DNA from: a virus
Virus record (IMG/VR): IMGVR_UViG_3300027973_000053
Span: 1 to 64,000 of that record
Length of the DNA stretch: 64,000 nucleotides
Direction: 5' to 3' (one strand)
Made by a program: the position numbers and the translations under genes. The notes beneath the pieces are model-generated. The model made no database searches and was not told the origin of the DNA. It worked only from the letters and a program-made list of their open reading frames with translations. Below are positions 15,956-50,558 of this stretch, one piece after another; the first letter of the stretch is position 1; every line of letters starts with the position of its first letter.

Positions 15956-16318
15956 TTATTTTTTAAATAATGTTTTTACAAGTTCCCATATAATAGCTAT
16001 AAAAACACCCATTCCAAGTGAAATACCAACTAATTTGTTTTTATAACTTTTTAAATCTTCTACTTCTTTTTTTATTGTTGCTGGGTCTGTTTTTTTTATT
16101 TCGCTAATATCTGATTCAATCGCACTTATATCTTCTTTAATTTTTTTTAGTTCTTGCAATATCCCCTCTTGCCCAAACTCTTTATCTCCTATTACTACAT
16201 CGTGAAGTTTTGATACCTTTTTTTCCATTGTATGTATGATGCCGACAATATCAGACCAACTAGCTAGAAAATCTCTGTTTTCATTCAGTAAATCTTTTAT
16301 GTTTGTTGTGGGGGGCAT
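15956..16318 (-). CDS. Lysis-cassette protein, coiled coil plus C-terminal membrane helix
   Basis: A 120-residue protein with heptad-like charged helices (EGILQELKKIKEDISAIESD) and a C-terminal membrane helix (GISLGMGVFIAIIWELVKTL). This layout matches hemolysin XhlA-type proteins that accompany phage holins and endolysins. Its start codon overlaps the amidase stop by 1 base, so the two are coupled. A holin-accessory or membrane-bound regulator of lysis is likely. It carries no signal peptide. Confidence 0.6.
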   Translation of the reverse strand: MPPTTNIKDLLNENRDFLASWSDIVGIIHTMEKKVSKLHDVVIGDKEFGQEGILQELKKIKEDISAIESDISEIKKTDPATIKKEVEDLKSYKNKLVGISLGMGVFIAIIWELVKTLFKK

Positions 16319-16857
16319 TACAATACTATTTTTTCGTATTTTTCAATAATGTTTGCTACACCACTTGCCAACGAAAAAAAGTTTTGGTCGTAGTTGCTCA
16401 TATCTTCTGCATTATCTATAAAGCAAATTTCCAAAAGGCAAACAGTTCCTTGTTCACGCATTAATCCAAGCCTACCTCTATGACTTTCTGATTCTGATTT
16501 CACTCCCCTATTTGTTACACCAAGTATTTCAGATGTTAAGGCAGATAGTTCTTGTGCAAACATTTTATCCAATCGGTCTGCATCATTACCTACAAGTGCA
16601 GTAGTACCGGAAGCTGTTTTATTAAATGCGTCAAAGTGAAATTCTATTACTACTGAACCTTCGCCTGTTTCTATTCTTTTTAGGTATTGGGCTAAACTTT
16701 CTTCATCATTATCGGTGATTACCTTTAGCCCCTTTTGCTGGCAATATTTTACTACTGCATCCCTAAACTTGATTGTTTCGGCTGCTTCTGTTCTGTTATT
16801 TACACCCGAAGCACCGGGGTCGTGATTATTGTGTCCTGCGGAAATAAAACAAGCCAT
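16318..16857 (-). CDS. N-acetylmuramoyl-L-alanine amidase endolysin
   Basis: A 179-residue Amidase_3 enzyme that cuts between MurNAc and L-alanine of peptidoglycan. The zinc ligands are in place: H9 in SAGHNNHDPG, E24 in RTEAAE, H74 in EFHFDA. The catalytic E143 is in CLLEICFIDN. The protein consists of the catalytic domain only; there is no binding module and no signal peptide, so release needs the holin. Its start touches the holin-like gene, and the 120-residue membrane protein follows, making a compact lysis cluster. Confidence 0.9.
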   Translation of the reverse strand: MACFISAGHNNHDPGASGVNNRTEAAETIKFRDAVVKYCQQKGLKVITDNDEESLAQYLKRIETGEGSVVIEFHFDAFNKTASGTTALVGNDADRLDKMFAQELSALTSEILGVTNRGVKSESESHRGRLGLMREQGTVCLLEICFIDNAEDMSNYDQNFFSLASGVANIIEKYEKIVL

Positions 16858-21611: not shown

Positions 21612-22118
21612 TTATTTAACTAATATTCTAACAAATTCATCCGTAACAAAAGCTACTGCAACAGTAAGTGTTCCTGTTGTACTATCCCATACTACTTGAT
21701 TTCCTGTTGGTGTACCCGAAGTAAGTATAGCACCCACATCAATACCACCCCTACTTGCATATAATAATGTTGAATTAACTGCATCAGTAAATTGTATTGA
21801 ATAGGTTGCCGCAGTAGCAAATTTAGAAAACTCTCTTACCCCATAATTACCACCACCGGGTATTACATTTCCACCAACTCCACCTACTTGCAATATGTTA
21901 TTAGCTACTTGTACGTTTTGTCCGCACATAGCATAAACATAATTAATCATTCCGTTTGTTGCATTTGCACTTGCGTATTCAAGTGCTTTTCTTTCCATAT
22001 ACAATTGCCTTGCCTTGTATGGGTCAATATTGCCACCAAAAAAGCTACCCTTTGAAATGGTTTCATTCCAAAGAAACTGGCTTATTTTAGCTATTTGTAT
22101 GACTGTTGCTGCATCCAT
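21612..22118 (-). CDS. Virion-associated hypothetical protein
   Basis: A 168-residue protein, helical at the start (TVIQIAKISQFLWNE, YKARQLYMERKALEYASANA) and beta-rich at the end (TPTGNQVVWDSTTGTLTVAV). It lies 5 bases upstream of the fibre start, and its start codon touches the stop of the preceding gene. A link between particle and fibre is possible. I do not recognise a family. Confidence 0.55.
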   Translation of the reverse strand: MDAATVIQIAKISQFLWNETISKGSFFGGNIDPYKARQLYMERKALEYASANATNGMINYVYAMCGQNVQVANNILQVGGVGGNVIPGGGNYGVREFSKFATAATYSIQFTDAVNSTLLYASRGGIDVGAILTSGTPTGNQVVWDSTTGTLTVAVAFVTDEFVRILVK

Positions 22119-22654
22119 TAAAAGAAGTAGTTTGAGTTGTTTACAAAGTAAGTAGCCCTATTAAGTGCCGATTGTGCTGTGTAAATATCCGAAGCAAATT
22201 GTACTGCTTGTTGTGCTGAATCAAGTTCTACTCTTAATTTCATTTTGTTTTCGTACCAATCCGTGCTTGCGGCAAGGGATTGATTTGCTACTTGTTGTTG
22301 AGATAGTCCATAGTAAAATGATTCACAATAAGCCGAAAACACAAAAGAAGTAACCTTACTTGCTACCACATTATTGCTTACATCAAGCCATTGTACTGTT
22401 ATTGATAAGGCAGTATCTTGTGTTAAAACATTTAAGTCAACTGTTAATGGTTGCCGGGTAGTTGTATTTGTAATAGCCCAATCAATATAGCTTGTGGTTG
22501 TTCCTGTTGGCACTAAATAAGTTCCATCTGCTTTAAGCAAGTATATTCTTCTTTTGGTAATAGTAGTATCTGTACCTGTGGAAGTATCTGTTAAAGTAAA
22601 TGTACTTGGTGTACCGCTACTTTGGGTTGCTGTAAAGGATTGAGTAATCGGCAT
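22118..22654 (-). CDS. Virion-associated hypothetical protein
   Basis: A 178-residue protein. The first 110 residues are beta-rich and Thr/Ser-rich (TFTLTDTSTGTDTTITKRRI, SYIDWAITNTTTRQPLTVDL), the rest helical (VANQSLAASTDWYENKMKLR). This mixed plan is usual for phage baseplate or fibre adaptors. It is coupled to the next gene by a 1-base overlap. A TATATTTG box is upstream. Confidence 0.55.
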   Translation of the reverse strand: MPITQSFTATQSSGTPSTFTLTDTSTGTDTTITKRRIYLLKADGTYLVPTGTTTSYIDWAITNTTTRQPLTVDLNVLTQDTALSITVQWLDVSNNVVASKVTSFVFSAYCESFYYGLSQQQVANQSLAASTDWYENKMKLRVELDSAQQAVQFASDIYTAQSALNRATYFVNNSNYFF

Positions 22655-22700: not shown

Positions 22701-23189
22701 TTAATTTTCAAAGGTTTCCTTGTCAAATACTAGCAAAGCTGCCTTATCAGTTCCACATTGATTTAATGTAGCAAGGTAGTCAAATGCTTCACCTATGCTT
22801 TTTGTTTGTATTTCAACATATTGGATTAGTCTTTGGTGGATGGAAGCATCCTTTGTTGACATATACCAATCGTTATAAAACTCCCCTAAGTCCTTTTCCA
22901 TTTCAAAGTATAGTTCAAAGGCTTCAAGTAGGGTGGTTAGAGATTCTGTACTACCTTTTACGGAAGGAACATCTAAAACACTACCCCTATCATTCACAAA
23001 ATCAGCCCATAATTGGTAGTGTATAAGTTCGTCTGAACTTTCACCTAGAAAGAACTTTTGGCTACCAAAATACCCTATTGATTGCATTTGGTTGGCAATA
23101 TGTTTATATAGGTTGCTTGCGGTTAGTTCCCTTTGTGCTGCATCCTCAATTTTATTTAATTCTTGTTTGGATAGTAGGCTATTTTTCAT
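22701..23189 (-). CDS. Ferritin (non-heme, ferroxidase site intact)
   Basis: A 162-residue ferritin-like four-helix protein; such proteins oxidise Fe(II) and store the mineral in a 24-subunit shell. Aligning by eye with E. coli FtnA gives a constant offset of four: E21, Y28, E54 and H57 (in ESSDELIHYQLW), E98, and a YVEIQ segment matching FVEEQ of the last helix. The ferroxidase set therefore looks complete. There is no signal peptide. It lies between the 2,430-residue virion protein and fibre-side genes, inside the late operon. Whether it is packaged or acts in the infected cell is not shown. Confidence 0.8.
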   Translation of the reverse strand: MKNSLLSKQELNKIEDAAQRELTASNLYKHIANQMQSIGYFGSQKFFLGESSDELIHYQLWADFVNDRGSVLDVPSVKGSTESLTTLLEAFELYFEMEKDLGEFYNDWYMSTKDASIHQRLIQYVEIQTKSIGEAFDYLATLNQCGTDKAALLVFDKETFEN

Positions 23190-23207
23190 TTTTATGTTTT
23201 TACAAAT

Positions 23208-26200
23208 TTATTGATTAAATACTTCTTTTTTTGTTTTATCTGTGGCATCCGAATTTAAAAGTGAAACAATTTTTTTTAATTGGTCTTTATTTAATTCGGT
23301 TAAATCTATCTTTTCTTTTGGCTTACCTTCTCCCCTTGATATAGATAAATTACCAAACTTGTCTATATATACATATCCTTTTTCTTGAATTTTATCTAAT
23401 GATTCTGTTAATTTTTCCTTGTGTATCTTTTTAAAATTATCAATAGTTTCTTTTGGAAATTCATCAAGCGGCTTTTTAATACTTAATTCATCATCTTCTA
23501 TTTCTATTTTATACGGATTCAACTCTTTAAATTCAATGCCCTTATTTACAAAAAATTTGAATGGTTCTTTTGCTTTATCTTCTTCACTAAATTGTAATTG
23601 TTTTTCCTTAAATAAACTTGGTTTTGCCCCTGTACCACCTGATATTGCAGCCATAACTAAAGCATCAACTATTTTAGGGTCGCCACCATGTTCTGCTGCT
23701 GATTCATACATTACATGTGCTGCTTCGGCAATAGGTAATGGTGCAGCTTGCGATAAATATTCAAACCATCCTAGCTTATGTTTACCTTGTCTTGGCTTGT
23801 CGCTTGAATAAGGTAATACGTTTCCACTAAAGTCTGTGTTAAATGCAAAATCAGATACTTTTTGATAAAAAGGTGCTAGTTTACCTCTTAAATATTGTAT
23901 AGATTTTTTTCCTGTTGCTTCCATCCTTGTATCTCCATTCAATTCTTCAAGTTCTTCTGTTGATATAAAAACTAAGCTTTTAATAAAATTAGTTACTCCT
24001 AACATACCTGATGTTGCATCAATATTTATATCACCAAATTTAAATTTACCAAAATCATTTTCTTTTGGATTGGAAATATTTACTTTGTTTTTTGGATTTA
24101 TTGCATTTTGCATAGCATAATTAACTGCCAAAGCCGATGCCATAAAACCTAATTGCCTACCCACTCTGCTTGCCCATACTTTTGCAAAAACTCTTTCAGA
24201 AGAAGATGCTTTTTTAGGATTTACCAATGCTCTTACAGCTATTTCGGATGCCCTTAATGGATTCCTTGTTAATTTAGCCCATCTTGCCATCTCCATACCT
24301 CCTGCAAATGTTGCTTCATTAAGCCATTCCGGTACTTTTAAATTTGTTGCACCTGTTGAATTATTTATCAGCCATGATATTTCTTTTGCAGCCATTGGAA
24401 CTCCTTTATCATCTAGGTCTAATTTTTCGGATTCGGTTAATTTATTCCAATGATAATCAAATAGGTCTTGTCTTAAAACTTTAATTGCGTTGAATCCCTG
24501 CTCTCCTGCACCTCCTAATTTGCCTAAAAAGTTTTGGCTTTTTTGAAATTCCTCTGCATTTATAACGTCTGGATTGTTTTTTAATCCTGACCTTTGAGCC
24601 ATATTGTAGTTGTTCCTATTTTTAAGTTCCTGCATAGCTATTTCATAGTTTGCTTTATTTCCATAAGCATACCTCCATGCTCTGAAAAAGGCAGGAACAG
24701 TTTGTTTCCAAGTTAAGGGGTCAAACAATGTCATCATAGCGTGAGTACCAACAAATATACCACCATGACCAAATACGGATATTCCTCTAATTTTATCTGA
24801 AATTCTTTTTAATAATTTAGCGTACTCGTTTTTACCCTGTTCCTCTACCCATCTTTTTGTTGCGTTTTGATTCTTTTTATAATTAGAGTTTTTTATCCAC
24901 ATTTCATCTGAAATTCTTTTTGTTTCAGTTGTGGTTATGGCATAGTTCATTTGCGACCAAGTCAATCCTAAATCTTCTGCAACTAAAGAAATCATATCTT
25001 TATACTCTACACCTTTGTCTAAATATTCTTCTTTTGCGTATTTCCATATAGCCTTCTTTTCTTCAATGCTGAACATATTCTTAGGGTTCTTTAAATCCCT
25101 TAATACGTTTTTATCAAGCAAGTCTATTATTTCCTCTTTTCTTTTTTCTTTCAGTTCTATTTGTTCTTCTTCGGTAAGTGGTTTTTCTTGCTTAGATTTT
25201 ATTAAACCTAAGTTTTCTTTTAACCCACTAATTTCCTCCTTTAACTTGTTTATTTTTTCTTGTTGCTCGGGAGTTGGATTAAGATTATTTACATTTTTTT
25301 GCTTTATTATTCCGTTTTCTAAATCTTCTTTTTCTTTCTCTAATCTTTCTATTTTTTTCTCTTCCAAAGTTATTTCCAATCCATAATCTGTATCTTTTAC
25401 ATTCTTAGATGGAATCAATCCCATCATTTGTTTTTGTTCAAATATTTTATCCTTTAATTCTTTTTCTGCATTTGATAATTCTCTTTTATTTGGCGGCTCT
25501 TTTAATATACCTTGTCTTAAATTGTCTAATTCCTTTTCAAGTCTTTTTAAATTTCTTGATTCGGGTGTTTCCGTTAATCCATAAGCATATTCTTCAACTT
25601 TACCTTTAGATGGAATTAATCCTAATTTTTGTTTTTGTTCAAATATTTTATCCTTTAATTCTTTAATAGCAGAAGTATCTTTAAACTTTTCTGCTTTTTG
25701 TTTTACCAAACCTTGTTCTAAATCCTTTAGTTCTCTTTCAAGTCTATTTATTATTTTTTGTTCTTCGGATATTTTAGTTTTAGGCTCTAGTGTTGGTTTT
25801 CCCTTTATTAAACCTAAGTTCTTTTTTGCTTCAAATATCTCATCTCTTAATTCTTTTATTTCGGGAGTATCTTCTATTTTAACACCATTTTGCTTTACAA
25901 TTCCTCTTTGTATGTTTTCTAATTCATTTTGTAATCTACGAATTAGTTTTGCTTCGGGTGTTTCTTCAACAGCGTCCTCAAATTGTTTAGTAAATTGTTT
26001 TTCTAAATTAGTTTTATCTTTATCTGATAATTTTTGATACCATTCTTTGTCTTTTATGTTATTAATTATTTCTGCTACACCATCTGCTATTTCACCTGTT
26101 TTTTCTATTGTTTTTGCACCTAATTCAATTAATTCATTCCATGATACACCGGCTTTATTTAGTTGAATTTCGTTTCCGTTTTCATCTCTAAATACAAATT

Positions 26201-29200
26201 CTTTGTTTTTTAATTTTCTAAAATTATCTGCAACTTTTTTTGCTTTTTCGGAGAAAGATACTTCTGCTGATTCTTTACCACCCTTACCACCAAATGCTTT
26301 ATTTGCAGCTTCTATTGCTGCCTTTTCTGCTTTTTTTGCTTGTTCTTTTAATTTTTTATTCTGTTCGGTTAGTTCTATTATTTTCTTTTCTTGTTTGGCA
26401 TTTATTCCGCCTAATTTTTCCATTTTTTCCTCAACAGAACCTTTAACAACAGTAAAGGAATCTGAATCTAAATCTCTTTCACCTTGTAATGCAGTAAATG
26501 GCTCACTTGCTTTTGTTCCCATTTCTTTTGCAACAACTTGCCATTTGGATAACTCTTGCTTAGCTTCTGTGTACTGCCTACCATTTCCCCATTTAGCATA
26601 CATTTCATCTGCTATTTTAGCCAAATCTTCTATATGTGCCCTTACAATAGAAATATCATCTGCTGTTGGCTGCATACCATCTTTAAAATCTTTGGCTATT
26701 TGCTCTACATCTGCTCCGGCATTGTATAATAGCCTACCTCTATTAGCCATTTCTTCGGGTGTATCTCTTTGACCCCTTACAGGTTCTTTTAAACCTAATT
26801 TTTTTGCCAGCTTTTTTAATGCTTCGTGAGATACCCCTACCTTTCTTTCTTCGGGTGCTTCTTTTTTTGTTTTTTCCTTTGCAGCTACATTTTCCTCAAA
26901 TTTTCTTGCCCATTCTTTTTCATCAAAAGGTAAATTATTTTCATTGTGCCAATCTTTTAGATGAACCAATGCTTCCGATATTGCTTTTGCTACATCGTTT
27001 ACTTTTTCATAAACATCTGCAAAAGTTTCTAATGCCTTTGCTGCTGCTTCTTGAAAAGATATTCCAGATAGTTTGGCATCTTTGGGTAGGTCGGCTTTTA
27101 GCCAATCGGGTAATATTTGCTTTTCACCACTTCTTATTTTTTCGGCTAAATCTCTTGCTTTTGCGGCAATGTTTTCTTTTGGTGGTGCTATTCTGCTTTT
27201 TGCCCTTTCTTCATTTGTTGGCTTTGGTTGTTCAGCTTTATTAGGATTGCTTTCTTTTGTAAATCCGTCAGTTTCTCGGTAGGCTTTCCAATAGGCATCT
27301 GTAAGTTCTTTTTCTGATTTCCATTGTTCATAGGTTAATTTTTTTTGTTCTTTATTTAATTTTTCAAATTCGTAATTAATTGCTTTTTCTGCTATTTTAT
27401 CATTTAATTTTAGCCCGGTTAGTTTAAAGAATTTTTGTTGGGCATCAAATGAAATATCATTGCCTGCCATATTTTTCTTGGATAAAGCAGAAGATTCCCC
27501 ATTTGGGAACTTATCAATAAAATCAATTAATTCTCCGGGAGTTATTTCATAATCATAGTGGTCGCTTATTTCTTTTGCAATAACATCTAATGTTCTCCCG
27601 TTTTTGTTTATATAGGCTTTGGCTTTAGAAAGGTTCATATTGTTTTTATCGCCAAACTCCTTATAGCTTGAAAACTTAATTTTACCAATACCAAATTCAG
27701 CTATCATCATTTCTACGGATGAAAGATTATATGTTTTTGGTTGAGAAACATAGATATTTGCTATTTCAGAGGGGTTTTCACTATTATCTACTACAAATCT
27801 ATCATGTTCTTTTTCATCCTTAAATACCATATCTTTTGGTATTTCTGCTTTCTTTCCTTTGCTTAAATCAACATTCTTTTTCTTTCCATCTACTATGCCT
27901 TCTATTATTGGAGATTCTTGAACTTTTGCTTCCTCTTTAGGTAATACTTCTTCTTTTTTAACTTCTTTGGCTATTTCTTCTTTTGGTTTCGCTTCTTCTA
28001 CTTTTGGCAACGGAAGTAAATTGTCTTTTGCTTTTTTTAATCTATTTAGCTTATCTTCTGCATCTACTTTTGCGGATACTAATTTATCAAATTCGGGGTC
28101 ATTCCCTGTTGGGTATCCATTCTTTTTTATATATTCTAATCTTTTTGCTTGTGCTTTATCATAAGCATCTTGTGCTTCACTTATATATTCATCTGCTTTT
28201 TTATGAGCATCTATAATAGGTTGTTCTTTTAGTGTTTTGGATGGCGGATTCCATTCCTTTGCGCTTTTAGGGGCATCTGTAAATTTTTCTACTACTCTTA
28301 TTGGAATATTTCTAGCACCGTTGTCTTTAAGCACATCCAATCTTGTATGTCCGTCAGTTAATTCAGCAACTCCTTCATTTGGATAATAGGTTATTACTGC
28401 CGATTCTTTTAACCCTTCTTTGTTTATTTTACTATCTAATTCAATGGCATTTGCCGTAACTAAATTTGTTGGTTTTTGCTTCCTTAAATTATCAACTTCA
28501 TTTATTGGCAATACAAAATCGCTATCCTTTGTATTATTTTTAATACCACCGCCTATCTCTGTTTCTTTCTTTTCTGCTTTTAATAATGGAGTAATTAGTT
28601 TATCATATCTATCGTATATTTCTTTTTTCTTTACCTCGTCTTTTTGATTAGGCATAGCATCATACTCTGCTTGTTCTTCTGCTCTTAGTTGTTTTACTTT
28701 TTCTTTATTTGTAAGTGTTTTGGTAGGTTCTGCTTTTATTTCGGTAGGTTTTACTTCCTCTGCCTTTGGTTCTTCAATAGGTTTTATTTGTTCCTCAACC
28801 GCCTTACCTATTTCAGTAGGTGTTTGTCCTGTTAGGTTGTCTTTTTCAAACTTTTCAACTTTTCCTGTTTTTACTATTCCATCTATTTCAGAATCTAAAT
28901 TTGATATTGCCTTATCGTTATTTTCTATTCTTGCATTAAATGAGTTGCCATATTTTTTTAATTCCTTGTTTTCTTCCTCAATCTTTTTTCTTTGCAATAA
29001 TTTACCTGTAATGGATGCTTTTTGTTCTTCATTCAAATCCATTCCATTTACTACTTGCTTTTGTTCTTCAAATTCATTTAGCTTGTCCACTACCTTATCA
29101 GCAGTACCTTCGGGGAATACACCTCTTTCTTCCATACCCTTATAAAACTGCTTTACTTCTTCTCTTGGTGCTGATGCTACTATATTTTCAGCTTGTGGTC

Positions 29201-30500
29201 GTAAGTAAGAAGGTATCTTAAATGGTTGCCCAAGTGCCCACAATCCAAAGTGCATTACTGCCATTTCTTTAGCACTTTCAACTGCATTTTCGCCTATTTG
29301 TTCGGCTTCTATTTTATTTCCTGATAGATTAGATGCAATGTCATTTATTACTGACCCTGCTGCTGCGGTAGCACCTACTTTTGGATAGGACTTAATAGCA
29401 TGGGTTAGTGAATTAATAAACCCGGTCGTTTCAACTGTTGGGGATGGTAATTGTATATTTTTTGGTGCAGCATAGGAAAACACCGCATTTGTAGTAAGTG
29501 ATGTTACCTCGCCTACTAAAGCTGCTTTATTCGCTTTGTCATAGGCTTCGCTATCTGAAAATTCCGGATGCTGCTCTTTTATGCCACGATAATTTTTTTC
29601 TAGATTTTGTGCGTACCCTGCGTTTGCCATATCCTTTGCATTTGCAAGGAACATTCCAAAACTTGCACCTCCTGTTTCCGGTGCTAAAGCTGTTCCGCCT
29701 ATTGCCCCTGTTGTTGCTTTGGTAAGCATAGGTATATTTTCACCTAAGAACTCACCCACCTTTCCAAAAAATCCAGATGGTGCAAATTCTCTTTTATTTT
29801 CAAATGTTTCCAGAGAAGCCATTTTAGTATTCAAATAACTTATGGCTTTGTCTTTTGGAAGTGTTGCTATGTAACTATTTTCTAAATTTTGAACATGATT
29901 TTGCTGTACCGCATCAGAAAAAATATCAAAAATTTCAAAAAACCCTGCACCTCTTTTTAATACGGATTTTCCATTTTCGTTTACAGGAACTAAATCTCCG
30001 TTTTTAACTGATTCTATAACTTGGTCTTTAACATATGAGGGTAATTTTGTACCTCCCTTTGCTCTGTATTCTTTGTTTTTTTGTTCTACTGCATTATTAA
30101 TAGCTTCTCCTATATCGGGTAAATTAGATTTTGTTGCAACGTATGGTTTTGCACCTAATCGTTCTGCACGTTTTACTTCTTCTGAAACTTTTGGCGACTC
30201 TGTCTGTCCAAAATCTAAAAATCTATTATCTTTTTTATTTTCTTTTAATTGTGATGATATAGCCGAAGATTGAGAAGGTTGTGGGGGTACTTTTTTTTTA
30301 AAAGAATCCTCAAATGTTTTATAATCCCCTATCTCGTATTGTGGTGCAGCTTCTTGCCAAAAGCCTTTTCTAAAATTGCTATCGGAATATATATTTTTTT
30401 TAAAGCCATCAAAATTCCCCAACTCGTGTGTTGCAGACATTGATTCCCATAAAGCCTTTAATTGTTTTTCATCCATTTTTTTTATTTTTGAGTTTTCCAT
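23208..30500 (-). CDS. Giant polyvalent-type virion protein
   Basis: A 2,430-residue multi-part protein, the longest in the window. Two short N-terminal repeats (HELGNFDGFKKNIYSDSN and YEIGDYKTFEDSFKKK) are followed by a Gly/Ala-rich, membrane-like segment near residue 270. Around 665-745 lies a ParB/sulfiredoxin-like segment with LTDGHTRLDVLKDNG. Between about 1510 and 1770 there are four 50-residue helical repeats, each ending LGLI-x-SK or LGLIKGK. The last 550 residues form a helix-rich domain (HGGIFVGTHAMMTLFD) with membrane-like stretches. No RNA polymerase or lysozyme motif was found. Large proteins of this design are injected with phage DNA and combine several enzymes. Only the ParB-like part is assignable. 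Confidence 0.7.
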   Translation of the reverse strand: MENSKIKKMDEKQLKALWESMSATHELGNFDGFKKNIYSDSNFRKGFWQEAAPQYEIGDYKTFEDSFKKKVPPQPSQSSAISSQLKENKKDNRFLDFGQTESPKVSEEVKRAERLGAKPYVATKSNLPDIGEAINNAVEQKNKEYRAKGGTKLPSYVKDQVIESVKNGDLVPVNENGKSVLKRGAGFFEIFDIFSDAVQQNHVQNLENSYIATLPKDKAISYLNTKMASLETFENKREFAPSGFFGKVGEFLGENIPMLTKATTGAIGGTALAPETGGASFGMFLANAKDMANAGYAQNLEKNYRGIKEQHPEFSDSEAYDKANKAALVGEVTSLTTNAVFSYAAPKNIQLPSPTVETTGFINSLTHAIKSYPKVGATAAAGSVINDIASNLSGNKIEAEQIGENAVESAKEMAVMHFGLWALGQPFKIPSYLRPQAENIVASAPREEVKQFYKGMEERGVFPEGTADKVVDKLNEFEEQKQVVNGMDLNEEQKASITGKLLQRKKIEEENKELKKYGNSFNARIENNDKAISNLDSEIDGIVKTGKVEKFEKDNLTGQTPTEIGKAVEEQIKPIEEPKAEEVKPTEIKAEPTKTLTNKEKVKQLRAEEQAEYDAMPNQKDEVKKKEIYDRYDKLITPLLKAEKKETEIGGGIKNNTKDSDFVLPINEVDNLRKQKPTNLVTANAIELDSKINKEGLKESAVITYYPNEGVAELTDGHTRLDVLKDNGARNIPIRVVEKFTDAPKSAKEWNPPSKTLKEQPIIDAHKKADEYISEAQDAYDKAQAKRLEYIKKNGYPTGNDPEFDKLVSAKVDAEDKLNRLKKAKDNLLPLPKVEEAKPKEEIAKEVKKEEVLPKEEAKVQESPIIEGIVDGKKKNVDLSKGKKAEIPKDMVFKDEKEHDRFVVDNSENPSEIANIYVSQPKTYNLSSVEMMIAEFGIGKIKFSSYKEFGDKNNMNLSKAKAYINKNGRTLDVIAKEISDHYDYEITPGELIDFIDKFPNGESSALSKKNMAGNDISFDAQQKFFKLTGLKLNDKIAEKAINYEFEKLNKEQKKLTYEQWKSEKELTDAYWKAYRETDGFTKESNPNKAEQPKPTNEERAKSRIAPPKENIAAKARDLAEKIRSGEKQILPDWLKADLPKDAKLSGISFQEAAAKALETFADVYEKVNDVAKAISEALVHLKDWHNENNLPFDEKEWARKFEENVAAKEKTKKEAPEERKVGVSHEALKKLAKKLGLKEPVRGQRDTPEEMANRGRLLYNAGADVEQIAKDFKDGMQPTADDISIVRAHIEDLAKIADEMYAKWGNGRQYTEAKQELSKWQVVAKEMGTKASEPFTALQGERDLDSDSFTVVKGSVEEKMEKLGGINAKQEKKIIELTEQNKKLKEQAKKAEKAAIEAANKAFGGKGGKESAEVSFSEKAKKVADNFRKLKNKEFVFRDENGNEIQLNKAGVSWNELIELGAKTIEKTGEIADGVAEIINNIKDKEWYQKLSDKDKTNLEKQFTKQFEDAVEETPEAKLIRRLQNELENIQRGIVKQNGVKIEDTPEIKELRDEIFEAKKNLGLIKGKPTLEPKTKISEEQKIINRLERELKDLEQGLVKQKAEKFKDTSAIKELKDKIFEQKQKLGLIPSKGKVEEYAYGLTETPESRNLKRLEKELDNLRQGILKEPPNKRELSNAEKELKDKIFEQKQMMGLIPSKNVKDTDYGLEITLEEKKIERLEKEKEDLENGIIKQKNVNNLNPTPEQQEKINKLKEEISGLKENLGLIKSKQEKPLTEEEQIELKEKRKEEIIDLLDKNVLRDLKNPKNMFSIEEKKAIWKYAKEEYLDKGVEYKDMISLVAEDLGLTWSQMNYAITTTETKRISDEMWIKNSNYKKNQNATKRWVEEQGKNEYAKLLKRISDKIRGISVFGHGGIFVGTHAMMTLFDPLTWKQTVPAFFRAWRYAYGNKANYEIAMQELKNRNNYNMAQRSGLKNNPDVINAEEFQKSQNFLGKLGGAGEQGFNAIKVLRQDLFDYHWNKLTESEKLDLDDKGVPMAAKEISWLINNSTGATNLKVPEWLNEATFAGGMEMARWAKLTRNPLRASEIAVRALVNPKKASSSERVFAKVWASRVGRQLGFMASALAVNYAMQNAINPKNKVNISNPKENDFGKFKFGDINIDATSGMLGVTNFIKSLVFISTEELEELNGDTRMEATGKKSIQYLRGKLAPFYQKVSDFAFNTDFSGNVLPYSSDKPRQGKHKLGWFEYLSQAAPLPIAEAAHVMYESAAEHGGDPKIVDALVMAAISGGTGAKPSLFKEKQLQFSEEDKAKEPFKFFVNKGIEFKELNPYKIEIEDDELSIKKPLDEFPKETIDNFKKIHKEKLTESLDKIQEKGYVYIDKFGNLSISRGEGKPKEKIDLTELNKDQLKKIVSLLNSDATDKTKKEVFNQ

Positions 30501-31825
30501 GTACCCGTTGCAGCGTCATATACTTTTTTTCCGGGTGTTGTTGTTGGTTGTGTTGTTTTTGGTTGCTCTTTTGTTGCAACAATTCCCTTTGCCTTAAAAT
30601 TACTTGATAAAGACTTATTAGCTATTGTTGATTTGAAAGTCATTTCCGGTATTTCGGTAACCTTTGTCATATCTGGTATATCTGTAGGCTTCCCGTTTTT
30701 GTCTTTTTGAAATCCATAAATAGCAAAAAACTTGCCACTTGTCACCCCTCTTGCTATTGCAGGGGATTCTCCATCCATTTTATATTCATCTGCAATTCTT
30801 GGTGATACATTTAATTTTTCAAAATTTGTTCCTTCTGCCCCACCAAATCTTTCACCGCTTCTTAAATCTTTTATAAAGGCATCTAATTGAGCATTTAACG
30901 CTTCGCTATCTTGCCCCGGTTGATTTCTAAATTGAGAAGTATATTCGGGATTATATTGCTTAAAGGCTTCTTTTCTTTCGTATGGTGATAGAGAAATAGC
31001 TAAAGCATCTGCAACTTGTTTTGGATTTGCTCTTCCGTTTATTATATCTATATCTCTTCCAAAATATTTTTTATATATAGGATTTAATTGTTGCAATTCA
31101 TTTGCGTTTTCTGATATTTTATCTACATGATGGGCAAACCCTTTATCATATTGATATTTTCCAGATGTTATTGTTGATATTGCTTGGTTATTAGTTGGGT
31201 CATAAGATAACTCTGTTGTTTCAACATCTTTTCCTCCAATAGATTTTTTACCAATAACTTTTTGAGAAAGGAATTTATTTCCGGCATATAGGTCTTTTTG
31301 AAAATCCTCTGCACTAAATGGCTTATAGGCATCAAAGGTAGCTGCATCAAATGGTCTATGTTCTTTGCTTAATACAGGTGCTTCATTTGCTTTTAAATCT
31401 TCAAAAGTCTTATCTGCAATTACAAAACCTTTTGCTCTTGCCCCGGCTACTGCTGTACCACCAACCCTTCCTCTTGCTGCTGCGTCTTTTGATTGAGATA
31501 CAAGGGCAAGTTGTTGTTTGTTGTAGTTTACGAATTGATTGTATGCTTTTCCACCATCCAACATAGGGTTTTGTATGGCTTTTTTGTTTTGGAAGTAAAA
31601 CCCTTTTCCTTCTTGTTGCAGTCTAGTTAGGTCGTCTATATCATTTGCTTTCATCCCGGCTGGGTTTATGTTTTTATCATAATCCATAAAGTACCGGTCT
31701 AAAGCATCTGTTCTTGCTCTTTCTTTGTTTTGTATGTCTATATATAAAGAAGTAGGCTTGCTTGAAATATCAACTGCAACTCCTTTTCTATATGGGTTTA
31801 TGCCTAATAATCCTGTCGCTGCCAT
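30482..31825 (-). CDS. Internal virion-type protein
   Basis: A 447-residue hydrophilic, helical protein that I do not recognise. It has Gly/Ala-rich and basic segments (SQSKDAAARGRVGGTAVAGA) and a low-complexity C-terminal tail (KEQPKTTQPTTTPGKK, then VYDAATGTWKTQK). It overlaps the giant protein by 19 bases and the peptidase gene by 1, so the three are translated as a unit. Context suggests an internal or ejected virion protein. Confidence 0.6.
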   Translation of the reverse strand: MAATGLLGINPYRKGVAVDISSKPTSLYIDIQNKERARTDALDRYFMDYDKNINPAGMKANDIDDLTRLQQEGKGFYFQNKKAIQNPMLDGGKAYNQFVNYNKQQLALVSQSKDAAARGRVGGTAVAGARAKGFVIADKTFEDLKANEAPVLSKEHRPFDAATFDAYKPFSAEDFQKDLYAGNKFLSQKVIGKKSIGGKDVETTELSYDPTNNQAISTITSGKYQYDKGFAHHVDKISENANELQQLNPIYKKYFGRDIDIINGRANPKQVADALAISLSPYERKEAFKQYNPEYTSQFRNQPGQDSEALNAQLDAFIKDLRSGERFGGAEGTNFEKLNVSPRIADEYKMDGESPAIARGVTSGKFFAIYGFQKDKNGKPTDIPDMTKVTEIPEMTFKSTIANKSLSSNFKAKGIVATKEQPKTTQPTTTPGKKVYDAATGTWKTQK

Positions 31826-32733
31826 TATGCTAAATTTTGTTGTTCTGCGGTATTTGTTTTTGCCAACATATTGTTTAGTTGTATAATATCTTTTTCTTCA
31901 AAGTTTTCTTTTAATCTTCTAATTTGAAGTTCGTTTTTAATTTTTGGGTTTTCCAATGCTTTTTTAAATTGTTCGGGAGTAATATTATCTCCATATTTTT
32001 TTGTAATCCCATTTTTGTAAAATATATATCTCATTCCATCAATATCTGCTTTATTTTCCCATGGAGAATATGTATGGGTATTCGATTTATCAATGGGAAT
32101 CGGCATTTGACTATCTCTAAGAATAGGTTTGCCTGTTTGTTGTGCTAATTTTTGAACGTGCTTATTTCTTGACATTATTTCTGCTTGTTCATTATAATTC
32201 AATACCATAGCAGTTCCTGATTCAGAACCGGGTCTTGCTCCTACCATGTGCCCAAACTCATGTGCTATTGCACTAGCTTCTGAATCTGGATTAATAGTTA
32301 CAAGTTTTTTTGAAGGGTATGCTTGTTGATTAACGTAAGGAGAAACCTCTGTTTTTAATTCTTGTAAGGATTGAAGTGCTTTTGCTGATGCTTCTGTTGG
32401 GTTCTTATATTTACTTGCTCTTTGCTTAAATAATGGAGATAATATATATGCTCTTTGTGCTTTTGTTACATTTTTTATTTTATTCTCTATTTCTTTTTCA
32501 TTTTGTTCTTTAATTCTTTTCCAATCAGAGTATGTAACTTGCGTATTAAGTCCATCGTTTATAGATTTTGCATTTTTCCATGAATTGCGTACTTCTTCAT
32601 CTGTTGGAAATTTACTTACAACAGGTTTTTCCATCATTGTCTGCTTTCTCCCATAAGCAGAAGTAGAAATACCCGGTCTAGTAGTATCTGAACCATTGTA
32701 AGGAATGTTCCCCATTGATAGTGTTCTTCTCAT
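31825..32733 (-). CDS. Virion-module HExxH zinc metallopeptidase
   Basis: A 302-residue protein with a zincin motif AIAHEFGHMVG near residue 158: the two histidines bind zinc and the glutamate is catalytic. ENKADIDGMRYI, about 55 residues later, supplies an acidic third ligand, as in other H-E-x-x-H...E/D peptidases. A charged helical region precedes it. The protein has no signal peptide. It lies between internal virion genes and overlaps its neighbour, so it is probably packaged and could act on the cell wall or on virion proteins during entry. The substrate is unknown. Confidence 0.75.
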   Translation of the reverse strand: MRRTLSMGNIPYNGSDTTRPGISTSAYGRKQTMMEKPVVSKFPTDEEVRNSWKNAKSINDGLNTQVTYSDWKRIKEQNEKEIENKIKNVTKAQRAYILSPLFKQRASKYKNPTEASAKALQSLQELKTEVSPYVNQQAYPSKKLVTINPDSEASAIAHEFGHMVGARPGSESGTAMVLNYNEQAEIMSRNKHVQKLAQQTGKPILRDSQMPIPIDKSNTHTYSPWENKADIDGMRYIFYKNGITKKYGDNITPEQFKKALENPKIKNELQIRRLKENFEEKDIIQLNNMLAKTNTAEQQNLA

Positions 32734-42531: not shown

Positions 42532-43068
42532 TTATTTAATACCCAAATTTACAATATTTTCTTTTGCTTCTAAGTATTTTTTTGCAGCTTCTCCTTCTGT
42601 ATCAAAAAAACCCAAATGCACTTGTTTTTTATTTATAATTATATAAGAACGCCATTTTTTATTGTCCTTGCGATAAGAAACGCCAACATTTTTACTTGAT
42701 TTGCCTTCTTTTTTTTCATAGTAATAAATACTATTTTCTCTATTAGTGCAATATCTTAAATTGCTTAAATGATTGTTTTCCTTATTTCCGTCAATATGGT
42801 CAACGGCTAATTTTAATTCCCCTACAAAAGCTAACATTACCAATCTATGTACTTTAAATGTTTTTGGTTTTTTGTTTTTAATTAAATCCAATTTTAAATA
42901 ATTATTTTTATCGTAAGATGGATTTATAATTTTTCCATCTTTTAATGGAATATTTACTTTATTTCTTTTTGGAGGTGATAAAAAGGATTTTATTCTACCG
43001 TAATTGGAAATCTCATATAATCCTTCATAATTTGGTATTGGTAACCAAATTTCATTTACATTTGTCAT
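42532..43068 (-). CDS. HNH homing endonuclease (NUMOD4-HNH-AP2)
   Basis: A 178-residue free-standing homing endonuclease. In order: NUMOD4 domain (EIWLPIPNYEGLYEISNYGR), HNH nuclease core (VHRLVMLAFVGELKLAVDHI, then DGNKENNHLSNLRYCTNREN, with the catalytic-type histidines and asparagines), and AP2-like DNA-binding repeat (KNVGVSYRKDNKKWRSYI, LGFFDTEGEAAKKY). Such elements cut allelic genes lacking them and spread by repair. The ATG at 43068 is chosen because the upstream extension overlaps the capsid gene's end. It sits in the intergenic gap after the capsid terminator, a typical insertion site. Confidence 0.85.
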   Translation of the reverse strand: MTNVNEIWLPIPNYEGLYEISNYGRIKSFLSPPKRNKVNIPLKDGKIINPSYDKNNYLKLDLIKNKKPKTFKVHRLVMLAFVGELKLAVDHIDGNKENNHLSNLRYCTNRENSIYYYEKKEGKSSKNVGVSYRKDNKKWRSYIIINKKQVHLGFFDTEGEAAKKYLEAKENIVNLGIK

Positions 43069-43098
43069 ATCTTTATGTTTTAGCGAATTAAAGATACG

Positions 43099-43134
43099 AA
43101 AAAACCCCCAATATTTTATTATTGAGGGTTTTTT
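43099..43134 (-). terminator. Rho-independent terminator after the capsid gene
   Basis: AAAAAACCCC-type arm pairs with TGAGGGTTTTTT around about 12 bases; 20 bases downstream of the capsid stop. It should limit read-through into the endonuclease. Confidence 0.75.
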
Positions 43135-43154
43135 ATTGCACAAATCAAGTAATA

Positions 43155-46095: not shown

Positions 46096-48465
46096 TTAAG
46101 CCATTTCTTCTTGTGGCTGTTGTTGTTCTTGACCTTGTTCTTGTGGTTGTCCTTGTCCTTCTTGTTCCATTTGCTGCTGCTGCTGTTGTTGCATAATAGC
46201 TTGTTGAATTTGTTGGTTTTCCATTTCAACAGGCACTTGGAAGTTTTGCAAAACGCTTGAAACAACAGGCTTCAATTCTTCGGGTATAGGCATTTGAATT
46301 TTAGCCAACTCAAATAACCCTTGAATTACCATTTCCTTTTGCTTGGATTCTGATTTTTTCTTTTCAATGGCTTCGTCTGCCTGTGCTTTTGCCATTATGC
46401 TTTGCTGATTGGCTTCGTTGTTCATTTGTGCATTTTGCTGTGCCTTTTGTTGCTCTGTCTTTATGTATCTTTTTTGCCCTTGTCTGAAATACATTTCTGC
46501 AAGTTCTACACTTTCTTTTGCTATACGCATTATTTTGAAAGGGTCTAAATATACAGTAAGCAAAGGTGTAGCGGCTATGGAATTGTTCATCATAGCTTCT
46601 AGCTTCTGCATTTCGTATTCGGTAGGCAGCATATCTACTTTTGCCAAAAAGTTTCTTTGTCTTACATCTTGCTCGGAGAACATATCTCTATACGCTTCTC
46701 CGCTATGAAGTACGGAAGCATTTAATAAGCAAGCTACCTTTCTTGCGGTGTCCTCCATTACATACAAATAACTATCATAAACATAATCGGTAGCGTTATT
46801 GGCTAACTGCATAGATGATTCTATGTTTTGTACTGCTACTCTTGGTCTAGATGCTTGTTGTAATAGGTTAGGGTCGTCGCCCAATTCATCTTTTAATACT
46901 TGATAGTGGAATTGGTAAAGAGAAATAAGTGCTTGTAATTGCGGCGCAAATCCATTGTTTGCAAGTTCCTTAATTGGTATAGGTATAGCTTGCCCCTCTG
47001 CATCTCTACCACGATAGTAAAGTTTACCTGTTTGTTCCCAAATCTTTTGTATATCAATTGGCTTGGAAAAATCTCCCAAACCTAAATCAAGTTCTTGTAA
47101 AGCATCAACATCAATAGCCGCACCAGATGGAACCATCTTTGCTACAAGCTGCTGAATTTTTAGCCTTGCTAAAATCATTTGCTCAATAGGTTCTTCAATC
47201 TTTTCAGCGATAGCCACATTACGCATATCTTGCTGCTGATACATATAAAAAGAATATGAAAATTCTGCATCACCTAATTCCTTTGGGTCTTGGGGTCGAA
47301 TCATATTCTTTTTAATGTTCCATTTGATTATTTTCTTTACTGCCGGGCAATAAACTCCTTCATATATGTTCCACTTTCCTTCGCTTACAAATTCTTGGTT
47401 TTCGTCAATCTTTTGTGGTCTTTCGGATTTGCGAATGATTGTAGCGTTATTCTTCTTTGTCTTTGTAACTAAATATCCTTGTGAATCGTATGACTTTAAT
47501 TCAAAGCACATTAAATCAATGTTGTATTCATCGTATGGTCGCAAATAAGATACATTCCAATCCTGCATCCACTTTATCTTATCGGTAAGCTGATAGTCTT
47601 TTGAAAAACTAGCTATTTCAAAAATTTCTTCTTCGGTAAGTGTACCTCCGTTTTCCTTTCCGTACTTTGCCCTTAATTCGCTTATTTTAATAGAACGAAT
47701 ATGCCCTCTGTATGATGTATCTCTAAAATCGGGGTAGTCTGAATATGAATAAAAGCAGTTTTCGGGTCTTAACCACTCTACAAGAACCTCCCCTTTATCA
47801 TTCATCCATGTATAAGTTCCTACAAGCCCTACCGAAGCTGCATCGTGTAGCATCTTTTCTTTTAACACTCCATACCATCCGTTAGCGTTAAATATGTTGT
47901 TGCACCCTAAACTGAATTTTATTTCCTCTGGAAGATTATTGAACTCCATTGTCCATCTATCCAATTCGTCTTTATCTTCTGCCACAAATTGCCCTTGTGG
48001 AATCATTGGTACACCCGATTCTTGTGATATTTGAGTAAGTACCTCCTTGTTTTGGTAGTAATATTCCGCTTCTGCTGCTTTGTCTTTCTTTTCTTGTAAA
48101 CTTGTTGGGTCAACTGCGGTAACCTTTACTTTCTCTTTTCTTGCCATCCAACCACCTACAAGCCTTGATATGATTGTGTTTCCGATAAGAATAGGCTTCC
48201 AATTAATGTTTACATAATTGTTTTTGCCATTCATTTCCAATCTATCTAAATAGACTGACATATCTATCTTTCCGGTGGCTATTTGTCTATTCTTTCTAAA
48301 ACGATTATTGCGTATCCAAAAGTATGTTTGGTTTCCGTAGATGGTAGAATATATTGATTCAGCAACCTTTTTACCAAAATCTAAATCTGATTTCAATGCT
48401 ACATTGGTTGTAGTTTGAAAATCTTTTAGTGGTTGACCTGATGATATTTCGTTGTTGTTTAACAA
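46096..48465 (-). CDS. Portal protein
   Basis: A 789-residue protein placed directly downstream of the large terminase. After about 60 residues it has the portal-type segment VNINWKPILIGNTIISRLVG, followed by a helix-rich clip/wing and a long C-terminal helix (MQKLEAMMNNSIAATPLLTV) ending in a Gln-rich tail (IMQQQQQQQMEQEGQGQ). The size fits portals of crAss-like and other podovirus-type phages. The CTG-rich DNA coding the Gln tail is a simple repeat. The dodecameric portal ring is the DNA entry channel. Confidence 0.7.
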   Translation of the reverse strand: MLNNNEISSGQPLKDFQTTTNVALKSDLDFGKKVAESIYSTIYGNQTYFWIRNNRFRKNRQIATGKIDMSVYLDRLEMNGKNNYVNINWKPILIGNTIISRLVGGWMARKEKVKVTAVDPTSLQEKKDKAAEAEYYYQNKEVLTQISQESGVPMIPQGQFVAEDKDELDRWTMEFNNLPEEIKFSLGCNNIFNANGWYGVLKEKMLHDAASVGLVGTYTWMNDKGEVLVEWLRPENCFYSYSDYPDFRDTSYRGHIRSIKISELRAKYGKENGGTLTEEEIFEIASFSKDYQLTDKIKWMQDWNVSYLRPYDEYNIDLMCFELKSYDSQGYLVTKTKKNNATIIRKSERPQKIDENQEFVSEGKWNIYEGVYCPAVKKIIKWNIKKNMIRPQDPKELGDAEFSYSFYMYQQQDMRNVAIAEKIEEPIEQMILARLKIQQLVAKMVPSGAAIDVDALQELDLGLGDFSKPIDIQKIWEQTGKLYYRGRDAEGQAIPIPIKELANNGFAPQLQALISLYQFHYQVLKDELGDDPNLLQQASRPRVAVQNIESSMQLANNATDYVYDSYLYVMEDTARKVACLLNASVLHSGEAYRDMFSEQDVRQRNFLAKVDMLPTEYEMQKLEAMMNNSIAATPLLTVYLDPFKIMRIAKESVELAEMYFRQGQKRYIKTEQQKAQQNAQMNNEANQQSIMAKAQADEAIEKKKSESKQKEMVIQGLFELAKIQMPIPEELKPVVSSVLQNFQVPVEMENQQIQQAIMQQQQQQQMEQEGQGQPQEQGQEQQQPQEEMA

Positions 48466-48515: not shown

Positions 48516-50558
48516 TTAATTAACCAAATTTGGTACATAGCTTTTAACCATAGGTTCTTTTTTTGGCTTATCAACCACAGTTTCAAGCAGTAAAACAAGC
48601 ATCATTAAAAAAGAAACAGTAGTATCAAATTTGTTCCGGTCATTAGGGTCGTACTTCTTTGCATCCACAAGTAAGTTTTCAAAGTCCACTTTATCAATGT
48701 GGTTTTCAAAATACATTATGCCTACATCGTTTTGCTTTGTCAAACTAAATGGTGTGGTTGGAAATCCTCTATATCTTTCTGAATCTTTTTTGGTTGGGTC
48801 TATTACTGAATTAGGATATAACCCCAAATATAGTATTCTACCTCTATCCCTAAAATAACTTAGGTAGTCGTCAGAATTATGCTCGTACCACACCTTGTAG
48901 CCATAATATTCACTTGCAAGCAGAACTTGTTCATGTAGCGTTTCTTTTATAGATGGTCTGCCAATTAAGTGTCCTATTGCCTTCCCTGTTTGAGATGGAT
49001 TTAACATATCCCATCTCCTTCCTATCCACGCACTTGCTCTTGAACCATACTTACCTCCTTGACTATTACTATATCCATCAATAGCAATTACCCCATCGCT
49101 TATTCTTCCGGGCTTCTTTTGTTTTTGCTCGTATGTGTATTTGTTGTCTTGTCCTTGTGGTGGAAATTGGGTTATTTTCCAATGGAAATCTTCATCTACT
49201 GCTTCTCTCCATTTTACTTTTTGGTCTATATCTCGGTAGAATAAAACTTTTCTTTTTAGTACCGGATTTTCGTTTAGTTCTTGTTCTCTTTTGGCTATGT
49301 TCAATACGTTAAATATACAATCATCTGCATCCGTACTAAATGCTTCCTCTATTGTTAGAGGTTCTTTTCTTATCCTTGCTGATAATGCTCTAGGGTTGTT
49401 TTTTGCTGCATCCCTTTCAGCCATTATAGCCTTTAGTGTTTTTTCTTCATCCGGATATCCGTATAAGTCAAAGTTTCTTGTTTTTTTTGCAGACATAAAG
49501 AAGCGATACAATCCGCTACTTGTTTCTCCGTTTTCTTGTCTATTATTTTGGTCGGATTCATCCCACAATAACTTAAAGGCATCCTGTATTCCGTTTTTAT
49601 CGGTATCAAGTTTTTCTACTGTGGTTGTGTATAAAGCCTTGCCAATAATCCTACCTTCATCATCTTTTAAGCAATATCTTACTACTTCGTGTCTATCGTA
49701 AACATTACATTCCGTAGTTTTTCCTTCTTCATCACCAACGTATCTGTGTATCTTTTGTCCGTCATAAGCTGTTTCGTCTGCACTTTGCCAGTCAATAGCA
49801 CTACCTAATTCATCCTTATCTACTGAATCTTCTGATTTTTTACCCCTTACGTTTGTCTTTTGAAAACGCATTTCCGTTCTTGGATTGACACCTAAAGACA
49901 TATCGTATTCGGGTCGAAAGAATCTTGGTAACCTTCTAAATGGATTGACAATAGTTTTAGAAAAGAATTTCTTTGCATCAGCACCTGTCTTTGATTGTAT
50001 GCCGCCAAAAGTCATTTTGGTTCTTGTGATATAATCAACAAGAAATACACCTGCAAAGAATGACTTACCGAATCTTCGTTTCGTTACCTCTACCATCCCC
50101 ATACTAATAGGGTCTTGTATGCAGTATTCTAAAAAGTAAGATTTTTCTAAATCTGGAATCCTGAATTTAGGGCTTCCAATATCTATGTTCCACCATTGAA
50201 GATAAAGGTAGTGTAGTCCGGTTATGTAGGTTGGTTTACCATTGTTCATAAACCAAAATCCATTCAATCTTCTATCCCATTCTTGTTTCTTAAATTCTTC
50301 AAGTTTCTCGTTGTAGAAATCGGGTTGGTCGTCTTTCCTTTTCTTTTCGTAGTTATCCCACTCCTTCATTACTTCATCATACCATGCAGGGGGCTTTATT
50401 CTTTCCCAATATTGGTGCTTTGGGTTATCTGACCTTTGGTATATTCCTCTCCATTGTAGGGTGTTTGTAAAGGCATTAAAAACGTATCCCGGTTCAGGTA
50501 TATTGCATATTAACCCTTGTATATTAACCGATGTTCCGTTTTCGTATGGCTTAAACAT
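48516..50558 (-). CDS. Large terminase subunit (TerL)
   Basis: A 680-residue packaging motor. Near residue 156, VEVTKRRFGKSFFAGVFL is a Walker A of the variant terminase type (K-R-R-x-G-K-S). Further on, IDWQSADETAYDG is a candidate Walker B/catalytic region. The nuclease half has VIAIDGYSNSQGGKYG, an acidic strand of the RNase H fold. The N-terminal FWFMNNGKPTYITGLHYLYL matches other phage terminases of this size. It translocates DNA into the head and cuts it. The coiled-coil gene upstream is 3 bases from its start, and the portal follows. Confidence 0.85.
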   Translation of the reverse strand: MFKPYENGTSVNIQGLICNIPEPGYVFNAFTNTLQWRGIYQRSDNPKHQYWERIKPPAWYDEVMKEWDNYEKKRKDDQPDFYNEKLEEFKKQEWDRRLNGFWFMNNGKPTYITGLHYLYLQWWNIDIGSPKFRIPDLEKSYFLEYCIQDPISMGMVEVTKRRFGKSFFAGVFLVDYITRTKMTFGGIQSKTGADAKKFFSKTIVNPFRRLPRFFRPEYDMSLGVNPRTEMRFQKTNVRGKKSEDSVDKDELGSAIDWQSADETAYDGQKIHRYVGDEEGKTTECNVYDRHEVVRYCLKDDEGRIIGKALYTTTVEKLDTDKNGIQDAFKLLWDESDQNNRQENGETSSGLYRFFMSAKKTRNFDLYGYPDEEKTLKAIMAERDAAKNNPRALSARIRKEPLTIEEAFSTDADDCIFNVLNIAKREQELNENPVLKRKVLFYRDIDQKVKWREAVDEDFHWKITQFPPQGQDNKYTYEQKQKKPGRISDGVIAIDGYSNSQGGKYGSRASAWIGRRWDMLNPSQTGKAIGHLIGRPSIKETLHEQVLLASEYYGYKVWYEHNSDDYLSYFRDRGRILYLGLYPNSVIDPTKKDSERYRGFPTTPFSLTKQNDVGIMYFENHIDKVDFENLLVDAKKYDPNDRNKFDTTVSFLMMLVLLLETVVDKPKKEPMVKSYVPNLVN

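Follow-up and report, generated by a model that had tools for sequence, protein, structure and literature searches.

A ferritin of a phage-restricted family, encoded among virion genes and retaining invariant ferroxidase residues

Gene neighbourhood of the ferritin in the window

The window, by which we mean the whole analysed stretch of 64,000 nucleotides, comes from an IMG/VR virus record whose contig comprises 69,328 bases, and the interval to which the earlier note had assigned a ferritin corresponds in it to a 162-aa ORF of the minus strand (Table 1). The order of genes in this strand is as follows: large terminase subunit, portal, four products matching virion structural PHROGs, a gene encoding a 447-aa protein, a giant gene encoding a 2430-aa protein, and the ferritin gene, which is followed by the genes of 178-aa and 168-aa proteins, tail spike, endolysin, and more virion proteins. 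Terminase, portal, structural, tail spike, and endolysin genes are thus present on the two sides of the ferritin gene in one strand, and its location within a virion gene block, as had been claimed, holds. Contamination of the contig, also with host DNA, was rejected based on the strand, the GC content, which is like that of the neighbours, and the flanking late genes.

The giant protein encoded directly upstream of the ferritin has a homologue of 2164 aa in a related contig, L087 (36% identity over 574 aa), and gave no Pfam or PHROG domain matches when searched as a whole or as 500-aa pieces. Judging by its size, position, and relatives only, it may be an internal or polyvalent-type protein. 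The terminase is the closest, as indicated by tblastn, to that of a phage contig from spring water and, as far as named phages are concerned, to those of Flavobacterium and Cellulophaga phages, which makes a Bacteroidota host likely.

Certain minor features of this region are of note. Just ahead of the ferritin start, the sequence TAAATTTG (positions 23203-23210, minus strand), which overlaps the stop codon of the giant gene, fits the Bacteroidota -7 element (TAnnTTTG); in this AT-rich DNA, the match may be due to chance, and a promoter call would not be safe. Two genes upstream of the giant gene (31825-32733, minus strand), a 302-aa late protein with the zincin-type HEFGH motif and a weak match to Pfam Reprolysin_5 (E 0.013) is encoded, and by analogy to what is thought of metallopeptidases of polyvalent systems, it could process the giant protein. 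The head block contains additionally an HNH endonuclease gene (42532-43191, minus strand).

Table 1. Features of the window, with window coordinates, and arrangements of the ferritin gene in the window and in related contigs (gene products given by name or by size in aa)
Feature	Position	Strand	Evidence or remarks
Phage ferritin, 162 aa	22701..23189	-	Pfam PF00210 7.3e-12; AF2 pLDDT 95.5; PDB Z 22.8
Codon E21 (FtnA E17), ferroxidase ligand, helix A	23127..23129	-	invariant 70/70, offset +4
Codons E54-H57 (FtnA E50, H53), ferroxidase ligands, helix B	23019..23030	-	E54, H57 invariant 70/70
Codon E98 (FtnA E94), ferroxidase ligand, helix C	22896..22898	-	invariant 70/70
Codons Q128-S131 (FtnA Q127-E130)	22797..22808	-	Q128 in 70/70; site-C acids gone
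Giant gene, 2430 aa, directly upstream of ferritin	23208..30500	-	18-bp gap to ferritin; homologue L087
178-aa gene directly downstream of ferritin	22118..22654	-	homologues in head-tail blocks of L046, L083, L166, L167
168-aa gene, second downstream	21612..22118	-	conserved pair with the 178-aa gene
Tail spike/virion structural protein, 742 aa	19378..21606	-	phrog_4636 1.2e-18
Endolysin	16318..16857	-	phrog_435 1.9e-39
Virion structural protein, 1379 aa	34884..39023	-	phrog_14478 9e-64
Portal protein	46096..48465	-	phrog_6547 1.5e-46
Large terminase subunit	48516..50558	-	phrog_6681 2e-73
Window: giant 2430 - ferritin - 178			
L009/L010: 138 - ferritin - 1455			
Large GC-rich group: giant - ferritin - giant			
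L139-L143: giant - ferritin - giant			
L002/L021/L064: lambda-type portal - ferritin			PF05136 7e-96 (L064)
L008/L082: Mu-type portal - 258 - ferritin			PF06074 4e-40 (L082)
L046/L083: crAss/Cellulophaga-type portal - ferritin			phrog_6547 6e-63 (L046)
L084-L086: GroES-like domain protein - ferritin - virion protein			
L031, L062, L136: further arrangements			

Fold and predicted ferroxidase site

The resemblance of the ORF product to ferritins is far above chance, since it matches the Pfam Ferritin family with an E-value of 7.3e-12 (45.9 bits, above the curated cut-off of 24.5) and, in a single-sequence search, archaeal ferritins of solved structure with an E-value of 1.8e-10; solved ferritins were matched at 1e-16 when the family profile was the query. 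The AlphaFold model, for which 64 family sequences served as input, comprises five helices (A, residues 8-38; B, 41-67; C, 87-111; D, 115-145; E, 149-160) at a mean pLDDT of 95.5, and thus the four-helix bundle and the short E helix are predicted. All 50 matches listed in the structure search of PDB with this model are ferritins, the best among them being T. maritima 1vlg (Z 22.8); the human H chain has a Z of about 22.5. The match to E. coli FtnA (1eum; Z 22.5, rmsd 1.3 Å over 157 residues), together with the Pfam match and the five-helix model, bears out the ferritin identity proposed before.

The ferroxidase residues had been described as aligning with those of FtnA at a constant offset. 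In our alignment with an FtnA-type protein encoded in an enterobacterial genome (FtnA numbering), E17, Y24, E50, H53, and E94 correspond to E21, Y28, E54, H57, and E98 of the phage protein, and the offset is +4 throughout helices A to C but falls to +1 in helix D (Q127 to Q128), where the description fails. The residues E21, Y28, E54, H57, E98, and Q128 are unchanged in 70 of 70 distinct sequences of the phage family, and hence the ferroxidase site is intact and not mutated, the latter having been named beforehand as an argument against the ferritin proposal.

The acidic residues of FtnA site C are replaced in the window ferritin (E126 by I127, E129 by K130, and E130 by S131). The residues listed for the phage family at these positions, namely, I, T, L, or F at 127, T, K, R, or L at 130, and S or A at 131, include no acidic ones, while position 49 is D in 57 of the 70 phage ferritins. 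Every member of the cellular comparison set (19 bacterial FTN, the archaeal sequences, and one from a eukaryote) has acidic residues at positions 127 and 130, and a single member lacks one at position 131. The phage family departs therefore from the bacterial FtnA-type site C (E49, E126, E129, and E130) at the equivalents of 126, 129, and 130. The di-iron residues of human H ferritin are E27, Y34, E62, H65, E107, Q141, and A144. Because of the presence of Q128 and S131 and the replacement of the site-C acids, the phage site resembles the di-iron site of H-type (eukaryotic-like) ferritins rather than the three-iron site of bacterial FtnA, and the loss of site C suggests a simpler H-type reaction rather than that of FtnA.

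The phage ferritin shares its fold, length, E helix, and the E17/Y24/E50/H53/E94/Q127 set with archaeal and bacterial FTN (A. fulgidus 1s3q/5ls9 and E. coli FtnA 1eum) but is 22-26% identical to them, lacks the acids E126, E129, and E130 of site C, has the helix-D offset shifted by 3, and lies on a separate side of the tree. With eukaryotic H-type ferritins it has in common the E-Y-E-H-E-Q pattern, S/A at the position of A144, and the E-x-G-D motif of helix D, although the identity is about 22% and the single eukaryotic sequence in the tree, which forms a long branch, does not group with the phage family. Dps proteins, a different subfamily, lack the E helix and have their site between subunits, whereas the window ferritin has the E helix and the site residues within one chain. 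Encapsulin cargo bears a targeting peptide. In contrast to EncFtn, with its short chain and C-terminal cargo-loading peptide, the window protein is a full, self-closing ferritin chain, and neither a terminal extension nor a fusion to a tail protein was found in 70 members of the family. Encapsulins, in which a shell of the HK97-type lineage is combined with a ferritin-like protein, can be invoked as an analogy only (PMC6668986).

The phage ferritin family is under purifying selection, with the median dN/dS of 0.097 over 281 non-independent pairs of 75-97% identity, and its ferroxidase residues are invariant even though the identity within the family is only roughly 40%. A degenerate ferritin was rejected based on the residue conservation and dN/dS. 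Iron oxidation and storage by the phage ferritin are predicted with good support from the sequences, and the ability to handle iron that had been attributed to it is in line with the fold, the ferroxidase residues conserved in 70 of 70 sequences, and the purifying selection. The suggestion of the earlier note that the ferritin could keep iron away from oxidative damage would be compatible with these results.

Distribution of the family, its neighbours, and their terminal modules

While the first scan of IMG/VR revealed seven relatives of the window ferritin, the scan with the family profile gave 83 matches, of which 80 were kept, a profile of divergent members added six further contigs, and the profile of the upstream module described below nine additional ones, giving a family of about 95 viral contigs besides the window (about 96 with it). 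When 84,980 prokaryote species were scanned twice, with the use of short conserved peptide patterns that very divergent chromosomal copies could escape, a single match was obtained, on a 6.3-kb phage-like contig in a Burkholderiales MAG (L144, CAIVGK010000053.1), in which the order giant - ferritin - giant is exactly as in phages. We regard this phage-like contig as a mis-binned phage or a prophage. No second Pfam ferritin match was present in the genome of that MAG, and 299 genomes of its phylum contained ordinary FTN only (the best at 2.8e-22 vs. 1e-84 for the phage copy). The family is therefore phage-restricted within the collections searched, with one phage-like exception in prokaryote genomes, and its bacterial origin was rejected in view of that single match and of the 299 genomes, to the extent that such peptide patterns reveal divergent copies. 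In the tree, the cellular ferritins included and the phage family lie on the two sides of one branch (support of this split 100/99, with long-branch warnings and an undefined root).

A tblastn search of INPHARED with two family proteins gave no near relatives, only places of 22-25% identity in unannotated records. Two such records of Staphylococcus phages, OR845001.1 and OR850087.1, contain a 25% identical ferritin region that could be host DNA. Two viral ferritins of BFVD, A0A8D9C9X5 (uncultured marine phage) and A0A8S5Q7U4 (Siphoviridae), have the ferritin fold and are 16-19% identical to the window protein.

The ferritin gene occurs in at least nine arrangements, its immediate neighbours being portal genes, MuF genes, those of giant polyvalent-type proteins, or further late genes (Table 1). 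In L008/L082, where the portal gene lies two genes upstream of the ferritin gene, the 258-aa gene occupies what appears from the gene order to be the MuF position. The giant proteins of several relatives match MuF_C, DUF7178, or Zeta-toxin, and domains of this kind have been described for polyvalent proteins (PMC5512222). In L084 (7084-7947), as well as in L085 and L086, the protein encoded in the head block next to the ferritin on its upstream side is of 287 aa and has a C-terminal GroES/Cpn10 domain (PF00166, 2e-8).

The head blocks of L166 and L167 (portal - 380 - 450 - 290 - 180) consist mostly of genes whose products are 34-68% identical to those of L046/L083, but ferritin was found neither after the portal nor anywhere in these whole contigs; hence the ferritin gene is an optional insert, with a clean empty site at that position. 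L087, the nearest giant-bearing relative, in which ferritin is absent, is rearranged and gives no precise empty site corresponding to the window. The ferritins of L083 and L046 branch with that of L084 and with those of L008/L082, respectively, despite the common arrangement of the two contigs, a pattern suggestive of transfer of the gene among phages.

In most members of the family, namely, in the large group and in L009/L010, L031, L136, and L139-L143, the proteins that flank the ferritin carry terminal modules: a C-terminal one of about 60 aa in the upstream protein (consensus ..KRGL..RA..I..VQ.NF.DI...L...G.VKINC) and an N-terminal one in the downstream protein (M.C.Y.F..DG......FKAYL). 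Among 1007 proteins, seeds included, all 76 matches of the upstream-module profile (E <= 0.01) were at the C-terminus of the upstream neighbour of ferritin, and the profile of the N-terminal module behaved similarly among 1007 proteins, again with the seeds included. The top outside matches of a leave-out profile, built of the large group alone, were L031 (3e-6), L009 (0.0025), L010 (0.03), and L140 (0.045), i.e., the E-values were weak, yet the gene and the end were correct every time. The scan of the collection with the upstream module detected 64 contigs, and in 64 of 64 the ferritin gene is directly behind the module. The occurrence of the N-terminal module across lineages is poorly supported. 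Neither module was found in the profile search of the window, and both are absent from the neighbours of ferritin in four arrangements (portal, MuF, GroES-type, and L062). Each module has a cysteine near its terminus (L009:541-957, L010:7582-7998, L031:2992-8004, L053, L058, and L139-L143). The 138-aa upstream protein of L009/L010 appears to carry both modules; the model of its structure (pLDDT 53.5) was too poor for a fold search.

Possible roles of the phage ferritin

Iron handling during assembly seems to be common to many viruses. The reading we prefer, to which we give roughly even chances, is that the ferritin of the window, which belongs to a phage-restricted family, is catalytically competent, is made late, along with head proteins and internal proteins of the virion, and captures iron in the infected cell; the judgement that it acts there, in the course of assembly, is similarly balanced. 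The cage, built of 24 subunits, would use O2 or H2O2 to oxidise Fe(II) at the di-iron site and keep the resulting Fe(III) inside. Being produced together with the head and internal proteins, such a ferritin would most likely serve to capture the iron freed by the dismantling of the host and in this way curb the Fenton damage that phage DNA and proteins could suffer before packaging and lysis are completed. This is supported by the fold, the invariant site, the dN/dS of 0.097, the same-strand virion genes, the occurrence in about 95 other contigs, and the 100/99 split. The repeated adjacency to genes of portal, MuF, and giant virion-type proteins, as well as the conserved modules of the neighbours, counts against it: an enzyme free in the cytosol would not have to be encoded at any particular position within the late block, and these features indicate an association with particle proteins. 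It is possible, though we hold this more tentatively, that the ferritin is a virion or assembly component located near the portal, which binds the adjacent giant injected proteins and enters the particle either iron-loaded or iron-free, so as to protect the packaged DNA or to function when the next infection begins; this would agree with the placement of iron in or on the particle considered in the earlier note. The upstream C-terminal and downstream N-terminal modules would then be docking parts in many members. Consistent with such a role are the proximity to portals of lambda type (L064), Mu type (L082, two genes off), and crAss/Cellulophaga type (L046), the module found 76 times out of 76 in the upstream neighbour (seeds included) with ferritin adjoining in all 64 contigs, and the giants with MuF_C, DUF7178, and Zeta-toxin, of the polyvalent kind for which packaging into the particle and injection have been predicted (PMC5512222). 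However, both modules are missing from the window and from the four arrangements mentioned above, and the ferritin has no targeting extension. A ferritin cage measures 12 nm, which exceeds the tail channel, and its injection would require disassembly. A still more specific, and in our opinion rather unlikely, version assumes that the ferroxidase cage is docked via the NFxDI...KINC and CxYxF..DG modules to injected giants, i.e., that the particle assembles, carries, or delivers an iron-handling machine, the window being a variant that has lost the modules.

The proposal, mentioned in the earlier note, that iron is carried in phage tails for use at host receptors fares worse, as the ferritin gene adjoins those of head and internal proteins and not of tail fibres, and no fusion or extension links its product to the tail. 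Although the docking of phages on siderophore receptors with the use of tail-borne iron (the Ferrojan horse) is a hypothesis present in the literature, where a ferritin-like fold has been claimed for a virion-detected protein of Vi01-like phages (PMC10892097), we consider it highly improbable for the family described here, since most arrangements have no tail-fibre neighbour and none of 70 members is fused to a tail protein. The one published ferritin of a phage virion, that of Vi01-like phages, is a Phyre2 call, and TonB and FeoB mutants were infected normally (PMC10892097); a search of the whole Vi01 genome with Pfam Ferritin found no match at E <= 10. The family-wide loss of site C could be explained if the ferritin fold were kept for structure only, as a piece of shell or scaffold devoid of ferroxidase activity. 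This is improbable too, given the H-type ferroxidase residues that are invariant in 70 of 70 sequences at roughly 40% identity and needless in a purely structural protein. The optional character of the gene, which is missing from the related phages L087, L166, and L167, would fit a neutral passenger acquired from a host, or contig contamination, but the dN/dS of about 0.1, the distinct phage-restricted family, the neighbour-like GC content, and the same-strand position in the late block make such an origin scarcely credible.

Ferritin-superfamily proteins known from viruses so far include Dps and Mn-catalase of phages and the ferritin of giant viruses (PMC8008677, PMC6669764, PMC7136201). The phage-borne Dps and Mn-catalase, encoded by Gratiaviridae and Lactobacillus phages (PMC8008677, PMC6669764), have been proposed to serve the management of iron and ROS (PMC8008677), as has the ferritin of giant viruses (PMC7136201). 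The gene of Lactobacillus phages is located near DNA-metabolism genes (PMC6669764), in contrast to the window ferritin gene, located among virion genes. Viral ferritins were previously noted in passing only, and our searches of the open-access literature found no description of the family presented here, its site-C loss, gene position, or modules. The phage-restricted distribution, the intact site without site C, the strong constraint, and the repeated placement among genes of head and injected proteins make this family a testable case for control of iron by many phages during assembly, and the debated question of iron in phage particles can now be put to a concrete test on named genes. Should the modules dock to the cage, phages would also offer a natural means of fastening large proteins to ferritin. 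Two further BFVD entries, A0A6J7XDU5 and A0A6J7WIS1, are annotated as prohead proteases and have matches to the ferritin/Dps-like fold; possibly, they represent Dps domains fused to capsid proteases.
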